DNA of 64,000 bases from Mesorhizobium sp. M2A.F.Ca.ET.046.03.2.1 (lineage in GTDB: Bacteria; Pseudomonadota; Alphaproteobacteria; Rhizobiales; Rhizobiaceae), in contig NZ_CP034449.1 in the NCBI RefSeq assembly GCF_003952425.1, forward strand, positions 3,906,001-3,970,000. The letters are read 5' to 3'. The position numbers were made by a program, and so were the translations under genes. Position 1 is the stretch's first letter, and the number at the start of each line of letters is the position of its first letter. Below the pieces are notes generated by a model. It saw only the letters and a program-made list of their open reading frames with translations, was not told the origin of the DNA and did not search any database. Shown piece by piece: positions 4,771 to 47,539 of the stretch.

Positions 4771-4820
4771 TGTCCCGCGGGCGTATCAAAGCTTGGGTTC
4801 CTCGCCCCCGCCAAGGCGGG

Positions 4821-6117
4821 CAGGGCTGTCCGGGGAAAGTTAGACATAGTCGAGGCTCATCTGATCGGGAGAGCAGCGGGGGTACCTTCGACTTGGATTG
4901 ACGGGCGGCGGTTTGTCGATGGCGGCGATGTGGCGCCGCTCGAACAGGCATCGTGTCACCAGGTCGGTGAAGCGCAGGATCGGCAGTGCAACGCGATATG
5001 CGCGCGCTGCAATGCGCAACAGCGCATAGGCGATCATGGCGGCGAAGAGCTGCAGGCGGATGGCGTTGTCATTGTTGCCGAGGAACTTACGGATCTTGAG
5101 GTGCTGCTTGATCCAGCGGAACAGGAGCTCAATCTGCCAGCGCCCCTTGTAGAGGGCTGCTATGTCGGCGGCCGAGCGCTCGAGATCGTTGGTCAGCAGC
5201 GTGATGGTGTCGCCTTCGTCTCGCTTCACGATGATGCGACGCAAGCGGATCGGCAGTTTGGAATCGCCTTTGCTGGCAAAGCTCACCTCGGCATCCTCAA
5301 GCACGGTGAAGCCATCGCCGTGCATGGCTGCGAGGGGACGATCGCACACCAGCTTGAGCCCCATGTTGGTTTTGGGCCGGGTGACGAAGAAGGCTTGCGC
5401 CGCCGCGATCGCCGTCCACCAGCCGTAGTGGCAGTAACCCTTGTCGAACACGTAGGTCGCACCGTCTTCGATAGAGATGGTGCGGCCGATCTGGGCGTCG
5501 TTGACGTTGGCATCGGTGATGTCGAGGACGCGCGGACAGTCGCTGTCTGGATCATAGACGATATGCAGCTTCATGCCGCGGATGCGGCCGTTCGACTTGG
5601 CCCAGTCGCAAAGCTTGCCGAGCGGGATGGGCGTGGAATCGATCAGCCGCAGCATGGCACTGCCTTCGCGACGCATCTGCCGGTCGAGTTGGCCTGCAAG
5701 CAGGGCGAACGTCTCGGCGAAGACGGCTACAGGGCGGCGCCGGTTGGCGTCCGACAAGGTCGAGCGCCGCAACAGGTCGCTGCCGAGGTGGTAATGGTGC
5801 TGGCAGTTGGCGTTCCAGCCGGCTTGCAGGCTGCGAAGGCTCGTCGCGCCGCTGAGCTGAGCATAGATCAACACCACGAGATGGTCCCAGCTCTTGAACG
5901 ACTTGTCATACGCATCCCCGTCATGGCTATCCACAATCGTCTGGAAGCGGCGACGATTGATCGGTTCAACCAGCTTGCCAAGAATGCTAGGCGTAAAGCG
6001 CATGCCCCGTTCCCTTTCTGAGTCTCGACAACCAGAAGGTAGACGGAAAATCCCCGTCTTACGGGGCATGCACATGCGGCATTTCGATTCACCCGAACCT
6101 TTCCCCGGACAGCCCTG
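4821..6117 (-). mobile_element. IS4-family insertion sequence, copy 1 (1297 bp)
   Basis: The ends are 19-bp perfect inverted repeats, CAGGGCTGTCCGGGGAAAG, at both boundaries. The flanking 9-bp direct repeat CAAGGCGGG (4812-4820 and 6118-6126) is the target duplication. A single transposase gene fills the element. Copy 2 at 46150-47446 has the same length, the opposite orientation and an identical transposase protein, so transposition was recent. The boundary could be moved by one base (GCAGGG), which would shorten the duplication to 7 bp. The 9-bp version fits IS4-family behaviour better. Confidence 0.92.
4840..6003 (-). CDS. IS4-family DDE transposase (copy 1)
   Basis: Transposase of 387 aa. 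The N-terminal part (about residues 1-90) resembles the DUF4372 domain found in one IS4 subgroup. A DDE domain follows: D122 in LIDSTPI, D187 in VFDKGY and E292. The IS4 signature Y-x2-R-x3-E-x6-K is complete (Y285, R288, E292, K299). The start at 6003 is chosen because it opens the conserved MRFTPSILGKLVEP block; a longer in-frame extension runs out through the inverted repeat and is not believed. The protein is identical to that of copy 2, so the gene is intact and probably active. Confidence 0.93.
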   Translation of the reverse strand: MRFTPSILGKLVEPINRRRFQTIVDSHDGDAYDKSFKSWDHLVVLIYAQLSGATSLRSLQAGWNANCQHHYHLGSDLLRRSTLSDANRRRPVAVFAETFALLAGQLDRQMRREGSAMLRLIDSTPIPLGKLCDWAKSNGRIRGMKLHIVYDPDSDCPRVLDITDANVNDAQIGRTISIEDGATYVFDKGYCHYGWWTAIAAAQAFFVTRPKTNMGLKLVCDRPLAAMHGDGFTVLEDAEVSFASKGDSKLPIRLRRIIVKRDEGDTITLLTNDLERSAADIAALYKGRWQIELLFRWIKQHLKIRKFLGNNDNAIRLQLFAAMIAYALLRIAARAYRVALPILRFTDLVTRCLFERRHIAAIDKPPPVNPSRRYPRCSPDQMSLDYV

Positions 6118-6258
6118 CAAGGCGGGGGAGAGGTGGCCGCGAAGCGGACGGAGAGGGGCCTTCGCAGGGCGCTCCCCTCTCCGTCTCGGCTCGCCGAGCC
6201 ACCTCTCCCCACTTTCGTGGGGCGAGGAACCTTCGTCCTGTGAGCGTCCAGTTCGTTC

Positions 6259-11732: not shown

Positions 11733-11872
11733 AGCGAAGCGGGTCACGAAATGCCACGGCGGGCCCAACGGCTCGCCGTTTTCATTTCGGGGCGCGCCGG
11801 GTGGAAGGGAATATCCCAACAACGACAAAAACTTTGCTCTTGACGCCGAAAGGCTGAAAGCATATCGCCGTC

Positions 11873-11924
11873 CGTGGGCCACCCCTCCCCAACGAGGGGC
11901 CACTATCTGGAAGGATAGACCACG
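11873..11924 (+). promoter_or_regulatory. Structured serC leader (resembles the alphaproteobacterial serC RNA motif)
   Basis: Three helices form a closed multi-branch structure ending at the start codon. P1 is CGTGG (11873-11877) with CCACG (11920-11924). P2 is CCCCTC (11882-11887) with GAGGGG (11894-11899). P3 is CTATC (11903-11907) with GATAG (11914-11918). The Shine-Dalgarno sequence GGAAGGA spans the P3 loop and stem, so folding would control ribosome access. From memory this matches the conserved serC RNA described upstream of serC-serA in alphaproteobacteria. A TTGACG box at 11840-11845 may be the -35 element. Confidence 0.7.
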
Positions 11925-22381: not shown

Positions 22382-22513
22382 GGCCGTCGCCCTTACCAGC
22401 CCGCCGGGGGAAACGGAAGCCGGAAGCGCCGCGCTTCGGTTCCTGCCTCGGAACATTAGCTGCCCGGCAAACTTCCGCTTGCACGCCGCTTCGGCCGGGC
22501 CTATCTGTCGAGA

Positions 22514-22607
22514 CGCTCTAACGGGGTGCCGGACGTGATCCGGCTGAGAGGCAATCGAGCCAACCCGCTGAACCTGATCCGGTTTGTACCGGCGGAGGGA
22601 TTAGACG
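22514..22607 (+). promoter_or_regulatory. TPP riboswitch (THI element) of thiBPQ
   Basis: The conserved THI-box blocks are visible in order: ACGGGGTGCC (22521-22530), GGCTGAGAGG (22542-22551), ACCCGCTGAACCTGATCCGG (22563-22582) and GGCGGAGGGATTAGACG to 22607. The ends pair as P1 (CTCTAA with TTAGACG, one bulge). It binds TPP and should switch off thiamine import when TPP is plentiful. Confidence 0.95.
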
Positions 22608-22620
22608 TTTCGGACCATCC

Positions 22621-45946: not shown

Positions 45947-46149
45947 GCCTGCTTCCTCGCCCCCGCAACGCGGGGGAGAGGTGGCCCGGCGAAGCCGGGA
46001 CGGAGAGAGGGACGCCGGCCGTGAAGCAGCGGCTCTTTCCGGCGAAGTGCCGATGAATCCGGTCTGCCGAGGTTTCCAAAGCAAATTTCGGCGGTCGAGA
46101 GGCCCCTCTCCGTCCCGGCTGCGCCGGGCCACCTCTCCCCACTTTCGTG

Positions 46150-47446
46150 CAGGGCTGTCCGGGGAAAGGTTCGGGTGAATCGAAATGCCGCATGTGCATG
46201 CCCCGTAAGACGGGGATTTTCCGTCTACCTTCTGGTTGTCGAGACTCAGAAAGGGAACGGGGCATGCGCTTTACGCCTAGCATTCTTGGCAAGCTGGTTG
46301 AACCGATCAATCGTCGCCGCTTCCAGACGATTGTGGATAGCCATGACGGGGATGCGTATGACAAGTCGTTCAAGAGCTGGGACCATCTCGTGGTGTTGAT
46401 CTATGCTCAGCTCAGCGGCGCGACGAGCCTTCGCAGCCTGCAAGCCGGCTGGAACGCCAACTGCCAGCACCATTACCACCTCGGCAGCGACCTGTTGCGG
46501 CGCTCGACCTTGTCGGACGCCAACCGGCGCCGCCCTGTAGCCGTCTTCGCCGAGACGTTCGCCCTGCTTGCAGGCCAACTCGACCGGCAGATGCGTCGCG
46601 AAGGCAGTGCCATGCTGCGGCTGATCGATTCCACGCCCATCCCGCTCGGCAAGCTTTGCGACTGGGCCAAGTCGAACGGCCGCATCCGCGGCATGAAGCT
46701 GCATATCGTCTATGATCCAGACAGCGACTGTCCGCGCGTCCTCGACATCACCGATGCCAACGTCAACGACGCCCAGATCGGCCGCACCATCTCTATCGAA
46801 GACGGTGCGACCTACGTGTTCGACAAGGGTTACTGCCACTACGGCTGGTGGACGGCGATCGCGGCGGCGCAAGCCTTCTTCGTCACCCGGCCCAAAACCA
46901 ACATGGGGCTCAAGCTGGTGTGCGATCGTCCCCTCGCAGCCATGCACGGCGATGGCTTCACCGTGCTTGAGGATGCCGAGGTGAGCTTTGCCAGCAAAGG
47001 CGATTCCAAACTGCCGATCCGCTTGCGTCGCATCATCGTGAAGCGAGACGAAGGCGACACCATCACGCTGCTGACCAACGATCTCGAGCGCTCGGCCGCC
47101 GACATAGCAGCCCTCTACAAGGGGCGCTGGCAGATTGAGCTCCTGTTCCGCTGGATCAAGCAGCACCTCAAGATCCGTAAGTTCCTCGGCAACAATGACA
47201 ACGCCATCCGCCTGCAGCTCTTCGCCGCCATGATCGCCTATGCGCTGTTGCGCATTGCAGCGCGCGCATATCGCGTTGCACTGCCGATCCTGCGCTTCAC
47301 CGACCTGGTGACACGATGCCTGTTCGAGCGGCGCCACATCGCCGCCATCGACAAACCGCCGCCCGTCAATCCAAGTCGAAGGTACCCCCGCTGCTCTCCC
47401 GATCAGATGAGCCTCGACTATGTCTAACTTTCCCCGGACAGCCCTG
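46150..47446 (+). mobile_element. IS4-family insertion sequence, copy 2 (1297 bp)
   Basis: Same 19-bp terminal inverted repeats as copy 1 (CAGGGCTGTCCGGGGAAAG). Flanked by a 10-bp direct repeat CACTTTCGTG (46140-46149 and 47447-47456), the target duplication. Transposase identical to copy 1 but on the opposite strand. The intact separate target duplications of the two copies show that each arose by its own insertion and that the 40 kb between has not inverted through them since. Confidence 0.92.
46264..47427 (+). CDS. IS4-family DDE transposase (copy 2)
   Basis: 387 aa, identical in protein sequence to the copy at 4840-6003, with D122, D187, E292 and the complete Y-R-E-K signature. The start at 46264 follows GGGAACGGGGC. 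The reading frame is open upstream into the inverted repeat, but the ATG chosen starts the conserved MRFTPSILG block. Confidence 0.93.
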   Translation: MRFTPSILGKLVEPINRRRFQTIVDSHDGDAYDKSFKSWDHLVVLIYAQLSGATSLRSLQAGWNANCQHHYHLGSDLLRRSTLSDANRRRPVAVFAETFALLAGQLDRQMRREGSAMLRLIDSTPIPLGKLCDWAKSNGRIRGMKLHIVYDPDSDCPRVLDITDANVNDAQIGRTISIEDGATYVFDKGYCHYGWWTAIAAAQAFFVTRPKTNMGLKLVCDRPLAAMHGDGFTVLEDAEVSFASKGDSKLPIRLRRIIVKRDEGDTITLLTNDLERSAADIAALYKGRWQIELLFRWIKQHLKIRKFLGNNDNAIRLQLFAAMIAYALLRIAARAYRVALPILRFTDLVTRCLFERRHIAAIDKPPPVNPSRRYPRCSPDQMSLDYV

Positions 47447-47539
47447 CACTTTCGTGGGGCGAGGAAAAGAGCGTCTCGCGACCAAAATTTCATCCGATCA
47501 CGCTTGTGTGTTCGTGTTCTTGCCTTGGTTCGTCCTTAT

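Follow-up and report, generated by a model that had tools for sequence, protein, structure and literature searches.

A Mesorhizobium insertion sequence of the IS4 family and its preference for the middle of abundant intergenic palindromes

Two insertion sequence copies and the repeats they occupy

The window, by which we mean the whole 64-kb stretch of DNA that was analysed, carries two copies of one insertion sequence (IS), each lodged in a palindromic repeat (Table 1). The 19-bp end CAGGGCTGTCCGGGGAAAG is found without mismatch at both ends of copies 1 and 2, giving four matches in the window against a chance expectation of 0.01. The duplication of copy 1, CAAGGCGGG, lies inside the left hairpin CCCCCGCC-AA-GGCGGGGG, about 2.5 bp away from the palindrome axis, and the native hairpin of this repeat class has the form CTTCTCCCC-loop-GGGGAGAAG. 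The coordinates, the 9-bp duplication, the left hairpin and the extent of the composite repeat had all been given correctly by an earlier, sequence-only reading, as re-reading confirmed. The same reading had identified the intact right hairpin with the target of copy 2; the two sequences are indeed the same, with the refinement that the duplication of copy 2 is 10 bp long.

Close uninterrupted repeats are present elsewhere in the same genome (96% over 133 bp) and in other genomes. In addition, the syntenic position of copy 1 in a related genome (locus L332) is empty: it holds a diverged repeat without the IS, identity is 75% across the join and the farther 3' flank matches too. Rfam, at gathering thresholds, gave no family at the palindromic repeats; elsewhere in the window it marked a TPP riboswitch and a serC leader (22512-22617 and 11872-11923).

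Table 1. Features of the two IS copies and their insertion sites (window coordinates)
Feature	Position	Strand	Remarks and basis
IS copy 1, IS4-family insertion sequence	4821-6117	- (transposase)	1,297 bp; ends and duplication read in the sequence
Transposase ORF, copy 1	4840..6075	-	411 aa from first ATG; DDE_Tnp_1 and DUF4372
Likely transposase start	6003	-	387 aa; relatives annotated with a 1,164-bp CDS
Left terminal inverted repeat CAGGGCTGTCCGGGGAAAG, copy 1	4821..4839	+	19-bp end motif search
Right terminal inverted repeat, copy 1	6099..6117	-	19-bp end motif search
Target-site duplication CAAGGCGGG, left copy	4812..4820	+	9 bp; sequence reading
Target-site duplication CAAGGCGGG, right copy	6118..6126	+	9 bp; sequence reading
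Composite palindromic repeat GGTTCCTCGCCCC...GGGGCGAGGAACC	4796..6231	unstranded	left hairpin split by IS copy 1; sequence and uninterrupted relatives
Intact right hairpin CCCCAC-TTTC-GTGGGG = CCCCACTTTCGTGGGG	6207..6222	+	same sequence as copy 2 target
IS copy 2	46150..47446	+ (transposase)	end motif search
Copy 2 duplication CACTTTCGTG	left 46140..46149, right 47447-47456	+	10 bp; flank comparison

Family and subgroup

The IS4 family is defined by the signature Y(2)R(3)E(6)K and by the spacing D(60-110)D(100-150)E (PMC2266710). In the transposase found here, which contains the domains DDE_Tnp_1 and DUF4372 and scored above cut-off with the NCBIfam IS4 family model, the signature Y-x2-R-x3-E-x6-K can be read by eye as Y309, R312, E316 and K323, and the DDE triad D146/D211/E316, also placed by eye, has spacers of 64 and 104, which fit the family spacing. 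Two further IS4 criteria, a transposase encoded in a single ORF and a duplication of about one helical turn, are likewise seen (an ORF of 411 aa; 9 bp in 73 of 79 exact duplications). The IS4Sa subgroup is tabulated with ends CA------T, lengths of 1150-1750 bp and duplications of 8-10 bp (PMC2266710), and the present element, with the end CAGGGCTGT, a length of 1,297 bp and duplications mostly of 9 bp (7 bp in 2 of 79), agrees with this description, the assignment being made by features and not by tree. Judged by these sequence features, the element is an IS4-family insertion sequence of IS4Sa-subgroup type.

Copies in the host genome and in relatives

The host genome, 7.37 Mb in a single contig, contains 13 copies whose identity is 100% as rounded. 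Two of them (L010 and L013) are 1,296 bp long, 1 bp shorter than the others, and have a broken transposase frame; at a third (L003) the flanks are not direct repeats and resemble inverted hairpin loops, probably as a result of recombination between copies. Across the genus, the terminal repeat with at most two mismatches occurs in 44 of 146 genomes, some by chance. At one locus (L184 in G082) two outer IS ends lie 7.2 kb apart with no element-sized pair in between, possibly a composite or decayed structure.

The set used for counting comprises 98 distinct copies with both flanks: 13 from the host genome, 52 from other Mesorhizobium (one artefact pair dropped), 20 from Sinorhizobium meliloti Ak57, 5 from other S. 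meliloti, 4 from S. fredii and R. leguminosarum, and 4 from more distant relatives. Ak57 is represented by 20 of the 23 full copies listed, with one more counted under other S. meliloti; seven loci lacking two ends or enough flank were left out, as were more distant or single-ended copies. A search of the rhizobial family (394 genomes, E limit 1e-60) was kept out of the counts and gave seven genomes besides the host, none with a full-length close relative.

Preference for hairpins

A site was scored as a hairpin when the stem score was at least 6 and the centre lay no more than 2.5 bp from the duplication centre; sites with inexact duplications were scored as 9 bp, taking the better of two joins. 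By this rule, 81 of all 98 copies sit at hairpins, as do 66 of the 79 with exact duplications. The host genome contributes 12 of its 13 copies (8/9 with exact and 4/4 with inexact duplications), other Mesorhizobium 44/52, Ak57 19/20, other S. meliloti 2/5, S. fredii and R. leguminosarum 1/4, and the distant relatives 3/4. The preference is thus plain where a genome has many copies and less marked among the few copies on plasmids. Among 20,000 random positions in 864 kb of the host genome, only 3.3% reach the hairpin rule, so the binomial probability of 12 in 13 is about 2e-17. The position within the hairpin is also narrowly set, with the duplication centre no more than 1 bp from the palindrome axis in 63 of the 66 exact hairpin sites.

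The target hairpins belong to several repeat types with a common CTCCCC..GGGGAG or similar stem. The 864 kb sampled contain 51 such hairpins, or about 59 per Mb, which extrapolates to about 435 per genome; the repeats are mainly intergenic, judged from the sites read. The IS almost always inserts mid-palindrome in one abundant class of short intergenic palindromes. From two insertions out of two, the sequence-only reading had suggested as much for this repeat class, and had called for a count of insertions at hairpins and of their position in the loop; the suggestion generalises to the host genome and to the collection as a whole, in which most copies do not lie in unrelated, hairpin-free sequence.

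Duplications and target consensus

Among the 79 copies with exact duplications, the length is 9 bp in 73 and 7, 8 and 10 bp in two each. The remaining 19 of the 98 copies have mismatched or unrelated duplications, which probably arose in part by recombination between copies, an origin also proposed for such duplications of ISRm22 (PMC1525189). All 79 exact duplications have C as the first and G as the last base, and the CCC/GGG core is matched at all six bases in 62 sites, at five in 13 and at four in 4. Alignment of 50 sites of 9 bp, including six with one mismatch between the duplication copies, gives the consensus YYCC|C-N7-G|GGRR: C and G occupy the duplication ends in 50/50, C stands at -2 and G at +2 in 49 sites each, Y at -3 in all 50 and R at +3 in 49, and the middle of N7 carries little information. 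The same target preference is shown by the Mesorhizobium and the S. meliloti copies. What began as a hint from two copies has thereby become a target rule, at the level of single bases, for an IS4 element that targets REPs.

Some deviations should be mentioned. At L329 the IS lies about 3 bp off despite a perfect core register being available. The 10-bp duplications fit the arm spacing in both counted cases, as does a third, L046, which was dropped from the count for its short flank. A general dependence of duplication length on arm spacing is not claimed, as one of the two 7-bp cases fits it and a 9-bp register was open to the 8-bp cases (by eye).

This register bears on the simplest alternative, namely that the IS inserts at random and survives only in intergenic DNA rich in repeats. 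The density of the hairpins is in keeping with such a view, but only 0.30% of the sampled DNA lies within 15 bp of one, and yet 12 of 13 host copies are found there. Furthermore, the C-first, G-last duplications and the base-level consensus contradict random insertion, and the full core is kept at L004, a non-hairpin site that by eye falls where a gene begins. We regard random insertion with selective survival as extremely improbable. The IS481-type and IS5-type elements described below were considered as a neutral IS control and rejected, since both sit at the same repeats.

Relation to ISRm22

The sequence-only reading knew of no IS4 element with this behaviour; one has in fact been described. 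ISRm22, a member of the IS4 family, has 10 of 10 copies in S. meliloti REPs, and in the consensus of six copies with perfect repeats its insertion point is at the axis of palindromy (Tobes and Pareja, 2006; PMC1525189). The same paper prints the ISRm22 duplications as 6 bp and counts one ISRm22 on pSymB (PMC1525189). De Palmenaer (2008) places ISRm22 in IS4Sa and describes a 'spectacular' conservation of the target arms that ISRm22 shares (PMC2266710).

On pSymB of S. meliloti 1021, one place matches the transposase, with 79% amino acid identity (E limit 1e-5); it shares 18-19 of the 19 bases of the end motif, has a 9-bp duplication and lies in a CTCCCC..GGGGAG palindrome. This copy is probably ISRm22, a name that the searched record does not carry, and the present element is very probably a Mesorhizobium relative of ISRm22. 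Like ISRm22, it belongs to the IS4 family and inserts at the axis of REP palindromes, here with exceptions (12/13 and 81/98 at hairpins; 63/66 near the axis). Unlike the printed 6 bp of ISRm22, the duplications of the S. meliloti copies collected here are 9 bp in 18 of the 20 exact cases and 8 bp in 2. Other S. meliloti relatives are labelled 'ISRm16 family' by NCBI, and the one paper that a literature search on ISRm16 found is unrelated. The position of ISRm22 in the S. meliloti flp cluster (PMC10934763) was tried as another route to its identity and set aside, the nearest listed Ak57 copy being about 66 kb from the T2SSF genes.

Sequence reading and the folded hairpin

The best explanation, which we hold to be likely, is that an ISRm22-like element of IS4Sa type inserts into the dyad-symmetric duplex YYCC|C-N7-G|GGRR with a 9-bp duplication, and that REP-targeting is a by-product. 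The transposase would act on ordinary double-stranded DNA as a dimer, each half reading one CCC/GGG half-site, and insertion would leave a duplication of 9 bp, occasionally of 7, 8 or 10. The core with Y/R arms appears to be nearly confined to loops and upper stems in the abundant intergenic palindromes (an estimated 435 or so per genome), so that the element would behave as a REP-targeting IS and stay mostly out of genes.

The main rival is that what the transposase recognises is not base sequence but an extruded cruciform or hairpin, or palindrome DNA sensitive to supercoiling. That 66 of 79 clean sites are hairpins, 63 of them centred within 1 bp of the axis, is what recognition of a fold would give, and so is the presence of two other ISs at these hairpins, an IS5-family element within the loops and an IS481-type IS at 12-17 bp to the side. 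However, the 13 of 79 exact sites without a hairpin by the rule, some of which have weak stems, still keep 4-6 of the six core bases; 73 of the 79 duplications have one length, 9 bp; and copy 1 lies off the axis.

Counts of potential sites also bear on this. The 864 kb of sampled DNA contain 236 CCC-N7-GGG sites, of which 103 are hairpins with Y/R arms, 29 hairpins without them, 4 non-hairpins with Y/R arms and 100 neither; of the Mesorhizobium insertions, the 38 that combine a 9-bp duplication with a perfect core fall into these four classes as 33, 1, 1 and 3, in a comparison where the background is one genome, the insertions come from several, one repeat can supply several registers, and intergenic and genic insertions may survive unequally. 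With the bare core as the reference, insertions favour hairpins (50 of 60, against 55% of the 236 genome sites), so it is the Y/R arms that carry the argument for sequence reading. When the comparison is limited to sites with both core and Y/R arms, insertions show no preference for hairpins (33/34 insertions vs 103/107 genome sites, p=1), with just four non-hairpin Y/R sites giving this comparison little power. Among hairpins, those with Y/R arms are preferred (33/34 insertions vs 103/132 genome sites, p=0.011), and hairpins that lack them take roughly as few insertions per site (1 per 29) as core sites with neither feature (3 per 100), again at low power. Because 103 of the 107 core sites with Y/R arms are hairpins, reading of the sequence alone predicts the preference for repeats. 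Sequence and hairpin are nearly inseparable in this material, in which 4 non-hairpin sites with core and Y/R arms were sampled and 1 of 38 insertions falls in that class.

Overall, the target is most likely best described as the dyad sequence YYCC|C-N7-G|GGRR, read as CCC...GGG rather than as a folded hairpin, and recognition of a fold as such seems unlikely. The earlier proposal that the transposase recognises folded or palindromic repeats therefore stands as regards targeting of the repeat class, which is precise in position, while its folded-hairpin part is not favoured by the comparison at fixed core and Y/R arms. The target rule itself offers a definite way of telling sequence reading and hairpin reading apart.

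Other insertion sequences at the same repeats

Two further kinds of IS use these repeats. The first, about 1,330 bp long with mostly 4-bp duplications, is of IS481 type by its best NCBIfam match, which is just below cut-off (L351-L361 in the host genome; L417-L435 and L447-L454 in the genus). Its 11 host copies have identical-scoring transposases, and in 11/11 a hairpin stands beside the left end by eye. Among 35 distinct fetched genus copies, 29 have the left end 12-17 bp from a CTCCCC..GGGGAG hairpin by rule, five have the hairpin on the same side by eye (one imperfect) and one has it on the other side. Of these 29, 22 have the loop GTATAGTGAC, in full, slightly varied or in part, vs 5 of the 51 sampled hairpins, a sample in which three of 40 stretches themselves contain a copy of the IS481-type IS.

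The second is an IS5-family IS of about 1,187 bp (L377-L381 in the host genome; also L388, L389, L455, L459 and L393). The five host copies examined all lie in loops of the same hairpins by eye (3/5 by regular expression on joined flanks), and over the genus 10 of 12 distinct fetched copies lie in hairpin loops by eye, L392 not and L394 half. The duplications are 6-7 bp in six clean cases.

What is new is the occurrence, in the host genome, of an IS5-family IS in the loops and of an IS481-type IS beside the same repeats, such that unrelated transposases share them. A literature search (IS481; IS5 and hairpins; rhizobial REPs; Mesorhizobium repeats) recognised no such IS481 or IS5 insertions among the matches listed. 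This convergence is the strongest remaining argument for a structural or protein-borne attractant. The Mesorhizobium palindromes might, on a tentative view that we doubt, serve three or more unrelated DDE transposases as a common docking site, with the IS4 and IS5 types both inserting about the dyad axis and the IS481 type 12-17 bp to one side; the attractant would be some property of the repeat itself, such as extrusion, supercoiling or a bound protein, and each transposase would have its own register.

A narrower version is that a host protein bound to the repeat hairpins recruits several transposases, as has been suggested for the IS1202 family with XerC. This would suit the presence of ISs from three families at the same repeats in one genome, and also the one-sided, 12-17 bp placement of the IS481-type IS in 29 of the 35 fetched copies by rule, which resembles that of ISAjo2, 5 bp from a XerC site (PMC10132070). 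However, a bound protein would obstruct the IS4-type and IS5-type elements, whose cuts fall within the palindrome, and the IS4 consensus is accounted for by its own core, so we consider recruitment by a host protein very unlikely. In any case, a repeat family used by three IS types lends itself well to the question of why selfish elements converge on palindromes between genes.

Comparison with known systems

Symmetric targets are known for other members of the IS4 family: IS186 has a symmetric G/C-run target, with the IS186B duplication GGGGTGCCCCC (PMC12102499), and the insertion specificity of IS231A is cited in PMC2266710. Both differ from the present element in having the G-run on the left and the C-run on the right, which is the opposite polarity, and in their longer duplications (11 bp and 10-12 bp, respectively). 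Their consensus patterns are GGGG-N6/7-CCCC and GGG-N5-CCC, and we know of no intergenic repeat family that either of them targets.

Specific insertion in REPs or palindromic units is also described for IS1397 and ISKpn1 (IS3) and for IS621 and ISPpu9/10 (IS110) (PMC1525189). The transposases of these elements are unrelated to the IS4-type one. Those of the IS110 family are bridge-RNA-guided. IS711, which inserts in the Bru-RS repeats of Brucella, is likewise an IS of palindromic repeats, with the differences that it is 842 bp long and duplicates TA in YTAR (PMC2266754). ISNm1106 (IS5) lies near Neisseria REPs (4/7 and 7/14, type 2) and is described as having no fixed position within them (PMC1525189). 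Given IS711 and ISNm1106, the IS5-type case reported here also has precedents. Several IS families have been found in the REPs of one species, namely ISRm22, ISRm19 and ISRm5 in S. meliloti (PMC1525189); together with the Neisseria IS5 precedent, this means that shared use of repeats as such is not new.

Finally, a 216-bp non-autonomous MITE with the ends of the IS4 element is present in six copies in one genome (G099; L168-L173) and in one copy in another (G002; L186). Six of the seven score as hairpin sites by rule, and the seventh, L170, is one short of the threshold.
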